From: Ardenticatenales bacterium
GTDB lineage: Bacteria > Chloroflexota > Anaerolineae > Promineifilales > Promineifilaceae
Reading direction: 5' to 3'
NCBI GenBank assembly: GCA_020634575.1
Contig: JACKBM010000010.1
Location: forward strand, 68,390 to 132,389
DNA length: 64,000 bases
Numbering within the stretch: position 1 is the stretch's first letter; every line of letters starts with the position of its first letter. The translations under genes and the position numbers were made by a program. Shown here in pieces: positions 30,433 to 59,625 of the stretch. The notes beneath the pieces were generated by a model. The model was not told the DNA's origin and made no database searches. It saw only the letters and a list, made by a program, of their open reading frames with translations.

Positions 30433-30545
30433 TCGGCAGCGGGAGGCGCGGCGCCGCGGGTTGGCGTCTGCCCTGGGCACGCCGGTGCAAATTGTGGCGC
30501 TGGCGTCGCCGCCAGCCTGCGCGCCAACCTGGCCCGCTGGCTGGC

Positions 30546-30662
30546 AACCTGACAGGTCCCCCCAACCTGACGGGTCCCCCCAACCTGACGGGTCCCCCCA
30601 ACCTGTCGGGTCCCCCCAACCTGTCGGGTCCCCCCAACCCGTCGGGTTGGCCAACCCCTTTC
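30546..30662. repeat. REP-unit array, 18-bp period
   Basis: Six units start at 30546, 30564, 30582, 30600, 30618 and 30636 (AACCTGACGGGTCCCCCC type), then a terminal AACCCC unit at 30653 spaced by 17 bp. The centre base flips from A to T after the third unit, so both polarities are present. The open frame that runs through it, upstream of the kinase-like gene, is repeat-derived and not coding. Confidence 0.85.
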
Positions 30663-35121: not shown

Positions 35122-35227
35122 GAGAAACCTCCGAAAAAATGAAGTGGCGTTCATATACAATCAACGGAGATTCCGCTTTTTTCCGACACGAATTTGCTCA
35201 ATCTATTCCTTTCTGAAAACAGATTGA

Positions 35228-35438
35228 CCCGACAGGTTCGACAACCCGACGGGTTCGGCAACCCGACAGGTTCGGCAACCCGACAGGTTCGGCAACCCGA
35301 CAGGTTCGGCAACCCGACAGGTTCGGCAACCCGACAGGTTCGGCAACCCGACAGGTTCGGCAACCCGACAGGTTCGGCAACCCGACAGGTTTGGCAACCC
35401 GACGGGTTTGGCAACCCGACGGGTTCGGCAACCCCTCA
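35228..35438. repeat. Twelve-unit REP array, 17-bp period
   Basis: Units of AACCCGACAGGTTCGGC recur every 17 bp from about 35228 to 35430, with A/G variation at the third base after the centre, all in one polarity, then a terminal AACCCCTCA. No spacers, so not CRISPR. The terminal TCA is the TGA stop of the Fpg/Nei gene on the minus strand. Its left end lies about 105 bp upstream of the RAYT start codon. Confidence 0.93.
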
Positions 35439-46335: not shown

Positions 46336-46409
46336 GCCACGGATTAGCACGGATTTGCCACGGATTCTGAGGAGGATGAACCTAAAAGAAATCTGTGCCA
46401 ATCTGTGGC
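46336..46409. repeat. ATCCGTG-type inverted-repeat element, copy 3
   Basis: Left arm GCCACGGATTAGCACGG continued by ATTTGCCACGGATT; right arm AATCTGTGCCAATCTGTGGC. A shorter version of the family (74 bp). On the minus strand it encodes the last residues (ATDWHRF to VANPC) and the TAA stop of the cupin gene. Confidence 0.8.
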
Positions 46410-47036
46410 TTTCTTCTCCCCGACTAAAGGATTGGTCTCGAGGTCGCCGTACCAGGCAAAGAGGGTGAGCATCGGCTCGGTCAGGGTGCGCATGGCGTGG
46501 GGCTGGTTGGTCGCGTGGTAGATGAGCGAACCGGCCGGTCGTCTCACCCAGCCCCCATCATCCACCTGCCATTCCCCCTCGCCAGACAGCACCCCATAAA
46601 ACTCGATGGCCGGGTGCCAATGGGAGGCGTAGAAGATGTTGGGCCCCTGAATGGTCAGCCCCGCCAGCACCTGCTCGCTGCTCCAGACAGGGCCTGGACC
46701 TTCAGCCGGACGCGGCCCGACCAGCTCAACGAACGCATAGGCGCCTGCAAGTTCCGGCCCGGCGTAGCTGACCGGCATCGTCGACCAGGGCAACTGTGCC
46801 GCCGTGGCCTGGACTGCTGTGACCAGCCGTTGCAGGGCCCGGGCGGCCGGCACACGCGGTCGATGACCCAGCCAATCTGTTACGACAGGTGGGCAGTGCG
46901 GGGTGATGGTTGGGTTTCCGGCCGGTGTAGCCTGGATCGCGGTCACGATGGCGTCAAAAGTGGGCTGATCAGCGCCTGCGGCCGGCTGCCAGAAACGAAA
47001 TGCGTCGACAAAAGCAGGCCACAATTGCGCGTGCAT
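46344..47036 (-). CDS. DMSP-lyase-like cupin
   Basis: 230 aa. The C-terminal half is a cupin with the metal-binding string ASHWHPAIEFYGVLSGEGEW (two His, Glu and Tyr, as in DddL/DddQ/DddW-type dimethylsulfoniopropionate lyases), then RRPAGSLIYHATNQPHAMRT with a third His and LTLFAWYGDL. The helical N-terminal half also matches the DMSP-lyase family layout. DMSP cleavage to DMS and acrylate is possible, but family homologues include non-lyase cupins. The C-terminal 20 or so residues derive from the ATCCGTG repeat element, so the tail is not native. Confidence 0.65.
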   Translation of the reverse strand: MHAQLWPAFVDAFRFWQPAAGADQPTFDAIVTAIQATPAGNPTITPHCPPVVTDWLGHRPRVPAARALQRLVTAVQATAAQLPWSTMPVSYAGPELAGAYAFVELVGPRPAEGPGPVWSSEQVLAGLTIQGPNIFYASHWHPAIEFYGVLSGEGEWQVDDGGWVRRPAGSLIYHATNQPHAMRTLTEPMLTLFAWYGDLETNPLVGEKKATDWHRFLLGSSSSESVANPC

Positions 47037-47081: not shown

Positions 47082-47897
47082 CTACTGTCCTGCTAGTTTT
47101 GCTTCAATGACCTCGGCGAAGACAGCGAACGGCTGAGCGCCGAATAGCTGTTGACCATTAATGTCGAACGTCGGTCGCTGGCGAATGCCGGCTTCGCGCC
47201 GCTGGCTATCCAGCGCGGTGATGTGACCATGGGCCTCGCCACTGCTGTAGCATTCATTGAACTGCGCCACATCCACACCAACCGATTCGGCGATTGCCGC
47301 AAAATAAGCGTCGTCAGCCGAACTCAGCTCTCGCTGGTTTTCGAAGAAGCGGTCATGGACGTTCCAGAACGCGTCCGGGCTCTGCCGGCCGATGCAATCC
47401 GCCGCCGCATGCGCATTCATGCTGCCCGGGCCAAAGTCGACGATGGGCCAGAAGACGATCTTAACCAGGCCATTGTCCACGTAATTGCTGATGATTTCCT
47501 TCTCGGATCCTAGCACGTAGGATCGGCAGGTACTTCAGAAGAAGTCCGAATAATCAATCAGTACCACCGGCGCATCGGCCCGGCCGCGGAAATAGGTGCC
47601 GTCCGCGTTGCGCCCGTTGACTTCGACCTCAGTCATTGTCTCAGTGGCTTCGGTCGGACTGGCTTGCGTCGTAGCCGTTGCTTCGGCCATGGCCGGCTCG
47701 TCTGTTGGGTCACTGCCAGCTGTTGCTGCAACAACGACGGCGACGGTCGCGGTAGCCGGGACATCGGTGGCCGCTGGCGCGGTTGTAGCGGCTGGCGCCG
47801 TTGCCTCGCCCGCAGTTTCGCTGCCTGAGCTGCAAGCTGCCAGCAGGATGCCCCCCAGCAGTAGCAAACTGAACAGCCGGTTCACTTGTTTATTCAT
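47082..47897 (-). CDS. Selenocysteine-containing DsbA-like lipoprotein, copy 2
   Basis: 271 aa if the in-frame TGA at 47537-47535 is read as selenocysteine. Residues 1-22 are a lipoprotein signal ending in LLAAC; residues 23-90 are an Ala/Thr/Pro-rich linker. A thioredoxin-fold DsbA-like domain follows: APVVLIDYSDFF, then Sec121-Ser-Thr-Cys124-Arg at the active site, IVFWPIVDFGP, DAFWNVHDRFF, and the cis-Pro loop RQRPTFDINGQ. Without readthrough the gene would give a domainless linker and an orphan C-terminal piece starting at a GTG. The reading frame is continuous across the TGA, and a hairpin lies 10 nt after it. It overlaps the upstream paralogue by 8 nt. It would be an extracytoplasmic thiol oxidoreductase. 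A recent nonsense mutation is the alternative, but it is disfavoured by the paralogue. Confidence 0.85.
47506..47524 (-). promoter_or_regulatory. Bacterial SECIS-like hairpin, copy 2
   Basis: On the minus strand GATCCTA pairs with TAGGATC around the loop CGTGC. It starts 10 nt after the TGA, so the apical loop begins 17 nt from it, within the range of bacterial SECIS elements. Two of the seven base pairs differ from copy 1 by compensatory changes. Confidence 0.8.
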
Positions 47898-48729
47898 CAG
47901 GTAACTCCGTCCGGATCACGCCGGCGAAAATGTCGAAGGGGGCAGCGCCGAAGAAGACCTGCCCATTGATATCAAAAACGGGTTGACCGCTAATGCCACG
48001 CTCGCGGCGAATGGTATCCAGCTCGAGGACATGAGCCACCGACGCCGGATCATCGTAACAAGCCTCAAAGGTGGCCTGGTCAGCGCCCACAGCCGCTGCC
48101 GCGCTGACGAAATAATCCCGATCGGCCCGCCACAAGGCTGTCTGGTCTGTAAACAGTTGGTCGTGAATCTCCCAGAACAGGGCCGGATCCTGCCAACCAA
48201 CGCAGAAAGCGGTCAGGGTTGAGTAGACGCTGGGCTGCCCATGATTGAGCACCGGCCAAAACACCATCTGCAACTGACCGCTGTCGACAAACTCAGCGGC
48301 GAGCTGTTTCTCAGTGCCTAGCACGTAGGCACGGCAATTGGGTCAGAGAAAGTCCGAATAATCAATCAGACGGACCGGGGCGCTTGGCGAGCCACGGTAA
48401 AAGGTCCCCTCAAACTCCCCGTACCACGGTTCAGCCGTGGCTGTGGGTTCGCTGGGGACAGGCGTGGCCGTCGCCTCTACCGGGGTCAGCGTCGGCCCCG
48501 GTGTGTATGTTGCCGGCGCTGGCAGTTCAGTCTGCGTGGGACGCGGGGCGTTGGGTGCGCTGGTTGCCGTCGCCACCGCAGCCCCCGACTCATCGGGTCC
48601 CTGCGACAGATCTTCCTCTTGCATAGCCGACGCAAGGACCCGATGAGTCGGGGGCGGGGGCGAGGAGCTCGGCTGGCAACCTATGAGAACGGCCAGGAGT
48701 AACCCTGACCAGATAAGTCGTTTCAGCAT
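47890..48729 (-). CDS. Selenocysteine-containing DsbA-like lipoprotein, copy 1
   Basis: 279 aa from ATG at 48729 (GGGAAG 8-9 nt upstream) if the in-frame TGA at 48345-48343 is selenocysteine. Lipoprotein signal with lipobox LIGC in the first 20 residues; a Thr/Pro-rich linker to about residue 105; then APVRLIDYSDFL, Sec129-Pro-Asn-Cys132-Arg, MVFWPVLNHGQP, ALFWEIHDQLF and cis-Pro QPVFDINGQ. Same architecture as the downstream paralogue, with a UPNC instead of USTC active site. The frame continues exactly across the TGA into RAYVLGTEKQL. Exported, membrane-anchored disulfide oxidoreductase or reductase is the likely role. Requires selA, selB, selC and selD elsewhere in the genome; none is in the window. 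Confidence 0.87.
48314..48332 (-). promoter_or_regulatory. Bacterial SECIS-like hairpin, copy 1
   Basis: On the minus strand GTGCCTA pairs with TAGGCAC around the loop CGTGC, starting 10 nt after the TGA. Loop, stem length and distance are identical to copy 2, while stem pairs 2 and 3 differ in a base-pair-preserving way. Confidence 0.8.
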
Positions 48730-48828: not shown

Positions 48829-49536
48829 TCAGGCCGGGCGCTGGCCCACATGGATGGCGATGGTGCCGAACATGAACAGCTTGTAACTCACATTCTGGAA
48901 GCCGGCCGCGCGCATCAATTCCGCCAATTCTTCGGGGGCCTTGAACTGTTGGGTGCTGTCCGGCAGATAAGAGTAAGCTTCGGACTCGCCGGTGAGCAGC
49001 CGACCCAGGAGCGGGATGACATAGTTGAGATGGATGAGGATAAAAGGGCGCAACAAATTGCGTTTTGGCGGGCTTGATTCCAGGATGACGATGCGGCCAC
49101 CCGGCTTCAGCACCCTGCGCTGTTCGGCCAACGCGCCCGGTACATCGATGACATTGCGCATCAGGAAGCCGGAGGTGACGGCATCAAACAACTGGTCGGG
49201 GAAGGGTAGAGCCAGGGTGTCGGAACCGACCCAACGAATGGTTTGCCGGTTGGGAATCCGTTTGCCGGCTTGCATCATCTCAATGGTGAAGTCACCGCCG
49301 ACCGCTTCAATGCCGGGCTGCTGCTTCAACCCTTCCAGGGCGATGTCGCCGGTGCCGGTGGCGATGTCGAGGAGGCGACCGCCGGGCGGGAGCTGGGCTT
49401 GCTGGATGACGTAGCGGCGCCAGCGAATATCCTGGCCGCCAGTCATCACCCGGTTCATCAGGTCATACCGGCCGGCGATACGGGCGAACATGCCCTGGAC
49501 GTAATCCGCCCGTTCTTTGCCTTGCAGATGGGCCAT
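48829..49536 (-). CDS. ubiE: Demethylmenaquinone methyltransferase
   Basis: 235 aa. C-methyltransferase of menaquinone synthesis (MenG/UbiE). FARIAGRYDLMNRVMTGGQD and WRRYVIQQAQ at the start, motif I LLDIATGTGDIALE, VGSDTLALPFPDQLFDAVTS, GFLMRNVIDVPGALAEQRRV and LKPGGRIVILE, all UbiE signatures. The start is 2 nt from the ftsK stop, suggesting co-transcription. It indicates a menaquinone-based respiratory chain. Confidence 0.94.
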   Translation of the reverse strand: MAHLQGKERADYVQGMFARIAGRYDLMNRVMTGGQDIRWRRYVIQQAQLPPGGRLLDIATGTGDIALEGLKQQPGIEAVGGDFTIEMMQAGKRIPNRQTIRWVGSDTLALPFPDQLFDAVTSGFLMRNVIDVPGALAEQRRVLKPGGRIVILESSPPKRNLLRPFILIHLNYVIPLLGRLLTGESEAYSYLPDSTQQFKAPEELAELMRAAGFQNVSYKLFMFGTIAIHVGQRPA

Positions 49537-49538
49537 GT

Positions 49539-52265
49539 TTACTCTTCGGGGGTCAGATCCAGCACATCGCGCGCTTTGCTGGTGCCGGTGGGCGGGCCGA
49601 TGATCCCTTTCTCTTCCATGTAATCAATAATGCGAGCCGCGCGCGTGTAACCGATGCGGAAGCGGCGCTGCAGCAACGAGGTTGAGGCCTTATTCATTTC
49701 CCGTACCGCCGTGATCGCCTCTTCAAGGAGATCGTCGTCAAATTCCTCCTCCTGCTCCCGTTCGACCAGATCTTCCCAGAGGGGCGGCTGTTCGATTGTG
49801 GTTGCGGTGGTGACGGGCGGTGGGGCAGCAGGTGCCGCTACAGGGGCGAACTCGGGGGGCACCTCTACAATATCGGGCGCCAGGATCTCTTCTGCCTCGT
49901 CAGACTCTTCAATCTCGGCGGCGGGTTCTGGCGCTGCTGGCGGTGGGGGCGGCGTGGACACGCGGCGCGAGGGCGGCGCGGCTTCATATTCCCCTTCCGG
50001 CAGCGTGACGGAACGCTCTTCGATCAGCGAGCGCGCCTGGGCGTCTTCAGCGGTAATGAGGTTATAGCGGCGGGCTGTCTTCCAATAATCAATCAGCCGA
50101 TCCAGCTCATCTTCGCTAACATAACAGCCCTGCAGGCGAACAGGTGCGGCCGCATCCGGACTCTGAAATAGCATGTCACCCTTACCCAGCAGCCGCTCCG
50201 CCCCAGTCGAGTCCAGGATGACGCGACTGTCCGTGCTGGAGGCAACGGCAAAGGCGATGCGCGCCGGGAAGTTCGCTTTGATGAGGCCGGTCACAACATC
50301 GACCGAGGGACGCTGGGTGGCGATGATCATATGCATGCCGGTCGCCCGGGCCATCTGCGCCAGCCGGCTGATGCCCCGTTCCGTCTCTTCCGGCGATAAC
50401 ATCATCAGGTCCGCCAGCTCGTCGATCACAATGACGATATAGGGCAGCTTGTTGCGCTTCTTGCGCCCCATCTTCTTGTTGTATTCGACGATGTTGCGCG
50501 CGCCGATCTCGGCAAACCGCTTGTAACGGTTTTCCATCTCCCGAATCGCCCATTGCAGCACGCCGATAACCCGGTCCATCTCCACCACGACTGGCGCAAC
50601 CAGGTGGGGGATGCCGTTATAGCCGGTCAGCTCGACCCGTTTCGGGTCAACCATGACAAATTTGAGCTCTTCTGGCGTATTTTCCAGCAGCAGACAGGCA
50701 ATGATGGCGTTGACGCAGACCGACTTACCGGAACCGGTTGTACCGGCGACCAGCAGGTGCGGCATCTTGGATAGGTCGGTGCAAACCGGTTGCCCCGCCA
50801 CATTCTGCCCCAGGCCAATGCGGACCGGGGATTTGATCTTCTGGTAGTCGCCTGACTCCATCAGGTCGCGCAGCGAAACGAGGGCCGTGGCGGTATTGGG
50901 CACTTCGATGCCGACGTAGCCCTTGCCGGGGACAGGCGCCTGCACACGCACACTGTGGGCGGCCAGCGCCAGCGCCAGGTCATCCGCCAGGCTGGCGATT
51001 TTGCCGACCTTGACCTTGGTCCGTTTGCCGCCGCGCATCTCCAGGAATTGCGGCTCGACGCCGAACTGGGTGACGGTGGGACCCTGGTTGATGTCCACGA
51101 CAATAGCCGGGGCGCCAAAGCTTTCTAGCGTATGTTCGATGACCTCGACCTGCTCACGGATGCTGTCGTTGCTGATCTCCTGGTCAGAGCCTGACTCCAG
51201 GACTTCGGCCAGGACAGGGAGCTGCCAGTTGGGTTCCCGTTGCAGCTGACCTTCTGGCTCATCCAGGTCGGTTGGGGGCGTGGCGGCGATTTCCGGCTCG
51301 GCCGGTTGGGCGGCGGTATTGCGCCGCCCCCGGCTGCCATTGCGCGTTGCTGCCGCCGCTGGCGCCGCTGTTTCGGCCGCTGGCGGTTCCTGGTCAACTT
51401 CGAAGGGGATGTCGTCATCAGGCGGCGGTGGGGGTTCATTGCGGGGGAGGTCACGAACCGGCCGGTTTGGCCGCACCGGCTCCCGCCGCGCATTCCCCAG
51501 CGGCAACGGCCGCTGCTCGGGTACAGCTTCGCGGACCGGTCGCTCCCTAAGACCCTGCCAGGCCGCTGTAATAAAGGCGCCAAAATCGGTGCGACTGACG
51601 CCGCTAACCAGAATGGCGCCCAGCAAGCCGAGAATCAACAAAATGAAGACGGTGCCAATCGTGTCAAAGGCCTGTACAGATAGGCCGGCGAGCACACCGC
51701 CCAGATAACCACCGCCCTGTTGATTGCGGGCCACAGCCATGTAATCCAGGACACCTTCACTCTGATTGACCACAATCAAGGAGGCAAAGGTGCTGAAGAC
51801 CAGGAAGAGCAGCACCGCGCCTGTGACACGCCAGCCACTGAATCGAGGCGGCTGGTCCATCCCCCACAGCACCAGGTAGATGCCGGTGCCCGCCATAAAT
51901 AGCGGTACCAGGATGCCGCCCCAGCCAAACAACGTGCGCAGCCAGCGCTCCAGCGTCATGGGCAGTATGCCCCTGTTGGGCGAGATCAGGCTCAGCACCA
52001 AAATCCCGGTTGTAAATATCAGGATGATGCCAACAACCAGGGCTTTCTGCTGCAAATCGAGGGAGAAATTAAATTTCGGCAGCAGGTTTCGTTTGGGGCG
52101 GCGAGTACTGCTGTTACTTCGTTTGCTGCTGGTCCGCTTGCTGCTGCTGGTCCGCCGTGAAGCGGAGCTGCTCCGGCCCGAGGTTCCGCCGCGGGTTGCC
52201 TGCACCTTCTTGGTCGTATTTTTTTTGCTGGTGGTACGACGCCCGTCTGGAGATTTCCGTGTCAT
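49539..52265 (-). CDS. ftsK: FtsK/SpoIIIE-family DNA translocase
   Basis: 908 aa from ATG at 52265. A Lys/Ser/Arg-rich N-terminus, four membrane helices (about 75-100, 118-138, 155-175, 200-228), a variable linker (about 245-360), the motor domain with Walker A LLVAGTTGSGKSVCVNAIIA and Walker B YIVIVIDELADLMM, a long Pro/Glu-rich linker, and the gamma winged-helix domain (LLQRRFRIGYTRAARIIDYM) that reads chromosome-orienting sequences. The linker before gamma is unusually long and acidic. A TATAAT on the minus strand (52287-52282) overlaps the upstream ATG at 52283, which favours the internal start and a very short leader. Confidence 0.95.
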   Translation of the reverse strand: MTRKSPDGRRTTSKKNTTKKVQATRGGTSGRSSSASRRTSSSKRTSSKRSNSSTRRPKRNLLPKFNFSLDLQQKALVVGIILIFTTGILVLSLISPNRGILPMTLERWLRTLFGWGGILVPLFMAGTGIYLVLWGMDQPPRFSGWRVTGAVLLFLVFSTFASLIVVNQSEGVLDYMAVARNQQGGGYLGGVLAGLSVQAFDTIGTVFILLILGLLGAILVSGVSRTDFGAFITAAWQGLRERPVREAVPEQRPLPLGNARREPVRPNRPVRDLPRNEPPPPPDDDIPFEVDQEPPAAETAAPAAAATRNGSRGRRNTAAQPAEPEIAATPPTDLDEPEGQLQREPNWQLPVLAEVLESGSDQEISNDSIREQVEVIEHTLESFGAPAIVVDINQGPTVTQFGVEPQFLEMRGGKRTKVKVGKIASLADDLALALAAHSVRVQAPVPGKGYVGIEVPNTATALVSLRDLMESGDYQKIKSPVRIGLGQNVAGQPVCTDLSKMPHLLVAGTTGSGKSVCVNAIIACLLLENTPEELKFVMVDPKRVELTGYNGIPHLVAPVVVEMDRVIGVLQWAIREMENRYKRFAEIGARNIVEYNKKMGRKKRNKLPYIVIVIDELADLMMLSPEETERGISRLAQMARATGMHMIIATQRPSVDVVTGLIKANFPARIAFAVASSTDSRVILDSTGAERLLGKGDMLFQSPDAAAPVRLQGCYVSEDELDRLIDYWKTARRYNLITAEDAQARSLIEERSVTLPEGEYEAAPPSRRVSTPPPPPAAPEPAAEIEESDEAEEILAPDIVEVPPEFAPVAAPAAPPPVTTATTIEQPPLWEDLVEREQEEEFDDDLLEEAITAVREMNKASTSLLQRRFRIGYTRAARIIDYMEEKGIIGPPTGTSKARDVLDLTPEE

Positions 52266-52356
52266 AAGCTTACTCGGCAGCATTATAACATGGCGCGGAC
52301 CATATCACTATACATAATCGCCGAAAATTCACGTAATTAATGATACCTGACTGAGC

Positions 52357-59514: not shown

Positions 59515-59625
59515 AACCCGACGGGTAGCCGAACCCGACGGGTAGCCGAACCCGACGGGTAGCCGAACCCGACAGGTAGCCGAACCCGACGGGTCGCCCA
59601 ACCCGACGGGTTAGCCAACCCCTCA
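59515..59625. repeat. REP-unit array, 17-bp period
   Basis: Six AACCCGACGGGTAGCCG-type units at 59515, 59532, 59549, 59566, 59583 and 59600, then the terminal AACCCCTCA at 59617. Same period and same terminal cap as the array at 35228. It lies between divergent genes, directly after an ACCGGCCGGT decamer (59505-59514). Confidence 0.92.

Follow-up and report, generated by a model that had tools for sequence, protein, structure and literature searches.

Two overlapping minus-strand genes of an Ardenticatenales bacterium, A and B, encode in all likelihood members of the known NF041057/DsbG-like selenoprotein family, in which an in-frame UGA is decoded as selenocysteine (Sec). They lie in a 64,000-nucleotide (nt) stretch of contig JACKBM010000010.1 (assembly GCA_020634575.1), the whole of which is referred to as the window. 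The family itself is known, and the unusual part is the two-gene arrangement of old paralogues. Each gene carries a hairpin of the selenocysteine insertion sequence (SECIS) type. The features of the pair, in window coordinates, were:

47890..48729, minus strand: gene B, the upstream gene, predicted UPNC selenolipoprotein (279 residues, TGA as codon 129, lipobox LIGC)
47082..47897, minus strand: gene A, the downstream gene, predicted USTC selenolipoprotein (271 residues, TGA as codon 121, lipobox LAAC)
48343..48345, minus strand: putative Sec codon of gene B, in-frame TGA, aligned to the TGA of 54 other sites
47535..47537, minus strand: putative Sec codon of gene A, in-frame TGA, aligned to the TGA of 54 other sites
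48314..48332, minus strand: SECIS-type hairpin of gene B, GTGCCTA-CGTGC-TAGGCAC (sequence, 56-site alignment, covariance model)
47506..47524, minus strand: SECIS-type hairpin of gene A, GATCCTA-CGTGC-TAGGATC (sequence, 56-site alignment, covariance model)
47890..47897, minus strand: 8 nt shared by the two genes, with the start codon of A (ATG) and the stop codon of B (TAA) (sequence)

Gene structure and family assignment

Apart from one TGA each, the frames of A and B were fully open on direct reading, and both TGA codons stood where a thioredoxin-fold domain would have the first Cys of its CxxC motif. Both proteins consisted of a lipoprotein-type signal, a low-complexity linker and the thioredoxin-fold domain, and they were 40% identical overall. 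A preliminary description of this DNA had reported the single TGA per gene, the motifs UPNC and USTC, and a 7-bp stem with a CGTGC loop 10 nt after each TGA, all of which could be read directly; the lipoprotein-type signals that it had named were also found, the lipobox Cys being judged by eye in both proteins. Because of the 8-nt overlap and a GGAG that precedes the ATG of A inside the end of B, the sequence suggests that translation of A is coupled to that of B. The linker of gene B contained a 30-nt inverted repeat (window 48576-48660; arms 90% complementary, 25 nt apart), and the peptide encoded there was partly conserved in the public protein piece P0165.

A and B matched the NF041057 profile, the NCBIfam 'Rcas_1661 family thioredoxin-like (seleno)lipoprotein', over nearly its full length, with 283.6 bits for A (profile positions 3-246 of 247) and 280.6 bits for B (7-245) at a curated cut-off of 190. 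They share with this family the lipoprotein-type signal and the UxxC motif with one Sec. Table 1 of a 2026 review (PMC13188914) gives NF041057 as DsbG-like, with UxxC and one Sec, and credits Kryukov and Gladyshev 2004. Since both proteins exceed the cut-off and this table includes NF041057, the family is already described, and the idea that A and B are an unrecognised kind of protein did not hold. Literature searches for the Rcas_1661 family by name and by its NCBIfam terms found no paper.

The DsbA-like fold that had been proposed for the pair was borne out by matches of A and B to PF13462 and PF01323 and by a structure model of gene B. In this model, the block means of the predicted local distance difference test (pLDDT) were 94-99 from residue 111 (86 for residues 101-110), and residue 129 stood immediately before the helix 130-148. 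The hallmarks of the DsbA/BdbD type were present, namely a thioredoxin fold with inserted helices, the motif at a helix start and the conserved Pro of the cis-Pro loop. The fold of A and B is thus BdbD/DsbA-like. BdbD of Bacillus subtilis differs from them, with only 23% identity and, presumably, a Cys at the position where A and B have Sec. The DsbA-like selenoproteins (PF01323) of marine metagenomes also combine a UxxC DsbA domain with a SECIS whose small apical loop holds a G (PMC1088965), but PMC13188914 lists them apart from the DsbG-like NF041057.

Conservation of the TGA column

Family members in relatives were counted at E thresholds of 1e-60 (396 genomes of the class) and 1e-55 (56 genomes of one order), weaker members going uncounted. 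In the 11 genomes scanned first, the contigs contained one member over the cut-off each, with exactly one TGA. The class-wide search yielded 41 carriers with 42 places, of which 41 had a single TGA and the remaining one had no TGA, and the search of the order 27 carriers with 28 places, all with one TGA. Together these made 55 places in 54 genomes, 54 with a single TGA at the same column and one, in genome G337, with Cys. Cys was also found at this column in the homologue P0124. The sites used for comparison were the 54 left from 73 TGA hits at loci outside the window after removal of 19 duplicate copies. These counts, and the conservation of the hairpin given below, agree with the proposal of a UxxC selenoprotein pair whose homologues have Sec or Cys at the TGA column.

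That automatic gene calling would split such genes had been anticipated and proved true. Searching proteins with B yielded 218 relatives; among the matches listed (the best 120), 119 were pieces of 133-147 amino acids from after the TGA. Four public pieces corresponded to the halves of the two genes: P0165 (N-terminal part of B, 77% identity) and P0164 (N-terminal part of A) ended right before the TGA, and P0003 (C-terminal part of B, 89%) and P0123 (C-terminal part of A, 94%) began 8 codons past it.

A covarying hairpin downstream of the TGA

In both genes the TGA was followed, after 10 nt, by a perfect 7-bp stem with the loop CGTGC, which began at nt 18 after the TGA. The stems of A and B differed at two pairs, both compensated. 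Together with the two window sites, the 54 TGA sites formed a gap-free alignment of 56 rows, in which the loop letters C, G and T were invariant (56/56) and 95.2% of the 392 stem cells were paired. Cells changed on both sides numbered 103, against a shuffled mean of 30.9, and the paired percentage, the double-change count and the covariation score were each reached by 0 of 500 shuffles. Kinship among the rows flatters the shuffle comparison; slid versions of the stem, which preserve kinship, paired at 31.9-49.0%. Fifteen same-fold Cys domains, counted separately from the TGA sites, paired at 34.3%, like shuffled rows (35.2%). RNAalifold independently predicted the same stem from the alignment. 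By comparison, the conservation of this predicted hairpin is far beyond chance, and the covarying SECIS-type hairpins of the preliminary description were thereby upheld. According to PMC1088965, a small apical loop containing a G is a feature of bacterial SECIS elements, and the loops of A and B agree with it.

A covariance model, R1, was built from the 54 relatives' sites with the window left out. Over the 64-kb window it found 47537-47478 (64.7 bits, E 9.6e-13) and 48345-48286 (55.1 bits, E 1.3e-10), the sites of A and B, with no further hit up to E 1; coding homology contributes part of its score, and the E-values that such models give are approximate. With R1, the Cys site of G337 reached 25.7 bits, compared with 55-68 for six TGA sites, which were in the training set. 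This Cys member (L052:3430) was nested among Sec members in the family tree and had lost the hairpin.

Selenocysteine machinery and decoding of the UGA

The Sec machinery was surveyed in 45 of the 54 family-carrying genomes, all of them relatives. Using stricter filters, tRNA-Sec was detected at 59 bits or above in 40 of the 45 and over the formal cut-off of 47 in 42, the two additional scores (48.8 and 49.5) lying in the range of other tRNAs. Matches over the cut-off were obtained for selA in 39/45 and for selB in 39/45. Since selB was also over its cut-off in 313 of the 396 class genomes, its presence is a weak test of co-occurrence.

Several observations weigh against Sec as the decoded residue or against parts of the function proposed below. 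The survey of the machinery covered relatives of the window organism. tRNA-Sec was unclear in five of the 45 genomes (G002, G010, G011, G376 and G337), four of which have TGA members, and gaps in draft assemblies are the likely cause. G337, whose best tRNA-Sec score was 49.5 bits, has selA and a SelB match; its Cys therefore does not track machinery loss, and it was dropped as a case of lost machinery. Six stem pairs had a double change compared with a shuffled mean of 4.8, and 81 of 500 shuffles were as high. The folding energies of single sequences were ordinary, with z of -0.92 (A, 62 nt), +0.20 (B, 71 nt) and -1.20 and -1.45 (45-nt pieces), and for A the 62-nt piece had another minimum-energy structure, with the hairpin appearing in the centroid. 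Because z was unremarkable, the case for the hairpin is comparative and not energetic. Rfam had no match in the window. The redox direction of the encoded enzymes is presumed.

If UGA were read as another residue or as a plain stop, A and B would be decaying genes or proteins made in two pieces. Such a reading could appeal to the public gene calls, with separate pieces beginning shortly after the TGA, and to the fact that the machinery was surveyed in relatives only. TGA is, however, an ordinary stop in the window, terminating 23 of 53 open reading frames (ORFs) chosen by us, and 54 of the 55 family members have a single TGA, always at the same active-site column, with Cys at that column in the exception and in P0124. 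Hairpin covariation accompanies the TGA and is missing in the Cys domains. We consider this reading extremely improbable and rejected it on the normal use of TGA as a stop and on the Cys homologues. Sec is very likely the residue at the TGA of A and B, judging from these comparisons, and we infer that it is inserted in the window organism itself.

Proposed function

A and B would be two lipoprotein oxidoreductases of the thioredoxin fold, anchored in the membrane by their predicted lipid signals. SelB and tRNA-Sec would decode the UGA at the short hairpin 10 nt downstream, with its invariant CGU loop letters. The Sec, placed where the active-site helix begins, would join the Cys of UxxC in a selenenylsulfide, which would be exchanged with disulfides in exported proteins, much as in BdbD/DsbA. 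The active sites have different neighbours: B combines UPNC with a Gln ahead of the conserved Pro, and A combines USTC with an Arg there. The two proteins were probably kept for different substrates or redox roles, in a division of labour. It is more speculative, and on balance unlikely, that these co-translated and anciently diverged proteins act as a functional couple outside the membrane, for example as an oxidase with an isomerase or reductase or as a direct Sec-to-Sec relay, in a lineage that would rely on Sec to an unusual degree for handling exported disulfides. A selenoprotein glutaredoxin and a selenoprotein MsrA reportedly work together, to go by the title alone of Kim 2011 ('Tandem use of selenocysteine'); these belong to two different families, whereas A and B belong to the same one.

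Origin of the pair and its locus

In a tree of 63 domains, A grouped with L010, L021 and L066 (support 99/95) and B fell in a different set of 20 rows, 19 besides B (99/96). In this phylogeny, A and B are old, distinct branches. Just before the conserved Pro, 27 of 29 A-type proteins had Arg and 103 of 120 B-type proteins had Gln, subtypes in these 167 proteins being assigned by motif and not by tree (18 of neither type; 2 A-type and 17 B-type proteins unmatched by the pattern). The pattern matched 2 of 4 A rows and 3 of 5 rows of type C, the L020 group (all R), and 11 of 20 B rows (all Q).

No overlapping pair was seen among the 54 other family genomes, where draft assemblies and the thresholds may hide others; 53 of the 54 had one place over the thresholds, unlike the window. 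Two family copies, about 7 kb apart, were found in G214. The four public pieces P0165, P0003, P0164 and P0123 all had 47,854 bases as the size of the longest contig carrying them, and a second instance of the A-B pair is therefore very likely present on a related public contig. As far as found, A and B occur together only in the window and on that one public contig. A literature search found no description of tandem or adjacent selenoprotein genes, subscription papers being mostly outside its coverage.

On the minus strand, the gene order was UbiE, B, A. The neighbours of the pair were:

49539..52283, minus strand: FtsK/SpoIIIE translocase, next upstream neighbour (PF01580, 202.3 bits)
48829..49536, minus strand: UbiE/MenG-type methyltransferase, upstream neighbour (PF01209, 177.6 bits)
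46344-47036, minus strand: DMSP-lyase/cupin ORF directly downstream of A (PF16867, 76.9 bits)

Of the 54 other TGA sites, 17 had UbiE upstream on the same strand. Every one of these belongs to a supported set of 30 tree rows, made up of A, B and 28 rows from outside the window. By type, it preceded 2/3 A, 4/5 C and 11/19 B rows and 0/1 for L044. In 8 more of the 28 rows no UbiE was found within the upstream stretch available, and L005, L061 and L066 offered less than 600 nt. Outside the 30-row set, UbiE was upstream at 0 of 26 TGA sites, four of them with less than 700 nt upstream. FtsK lay further upstream in several relatives with a long enough stretch, and singletons of both A and B type occupied the FtsK-UbiE locus in relatives. 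The FtsK of the window was matched in 51 of 56 genomes, with 50-62% identity in long matches and up to 77% in partial matches of the C-terminal part, and its TypA in 36 of 45 (best 73%). None of these genomes was close to that of the window, and the matches place its organism in Chloroflexota, near the class of the genomes compared. Just upstream of the family member, seven loci (L019, L022, L024, L026, L034, L052 and L053) had two Cys-type thioredoxin-fold domains (CPFC/CPYC).

A recent tandem duplication of one selenoprotein gene would fit the adjacency of A and B, their 40% identity and their shared hairpin loop and spacing. The two genes are not a recent duplication, because they fall in separate supported sets of the tree, and their subtype residues differ; we hold this origin to be very improbable and rejected it on the tree. 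The same separation would suit a history in which one gene is native and the other entered the same locus by transfer or recombination, as would the scatter of A-, B- and C-type singletons over the FtsK tree (changes needed: three for B, two for C and two for A). That tree was too weak at the window to choose, so transfer into the locus also fits. The singletons of both types behind UbiE in relatives fit one ancestral locus, although recombination there would look alike. Transfer is a possible origin, to which we give about one chance in three in plain terms, and we lean, with some reserve, towards ancestral duplication followed by loss. Under ancestral duplication, the simplest reading of the locus, a single FtsK-UbiE-selenolipoprotein locus would have existed, of which lineages kept different copies, most relatives one and the window organism two.

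Other candidate selenoproteins and repeats

Further candidates were noted in relatives. In loci L074-L077 (G005, G003, G009 and G001; 4/4 fetched), a lipoprotein-like DsbA-like domain with UPGC (one TGA) was fused to a cyclophilin-type prolyl isomerase; one-TGA rows of similar size occurred in 9 of the 11 first-scanned genomes. Hairpins after the TGA of the four fusions had -15.9 to -23.8 kcal/mol (raw energies, no shuffle comparison). In G001, a DsbA-like protein with UPFC and one in-frame TGA (L080:558-1295) was directly followed by a gene (L080:1304-2101) with a DsbB-type disulfide oxidoreductase match that continued into CTACH, as in cytochrome c. In G002, a 640-codon protein (L078:425-2344) consisted of three thioredoxin-fold domains, the first of which carried a TGA (UPFC) and the remaining two Cys; multi-domain rows of about this size from other first-scanned genomes had no stop. 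The window also contained arrays of 17-18-bp units akin to CCCGACGGGT (30545-30647, 35227-35434, 59515-59621 and shorter ones), some in or beside ORFs.

Significance

The pair is a well-supported case of two same-family selenoproteins whose genes overlap and each have a SECIS-type hairpin of their own. The 56 sites provide a covariation set for the hairpin of the NF041057 family, with a natural Cys control. In practical terms, public gene calls still split these genes. For the biology of the group, the findings imply that Anaerolineae relatives may use several Sec enzymes for disulfides outside the cytoplasm.
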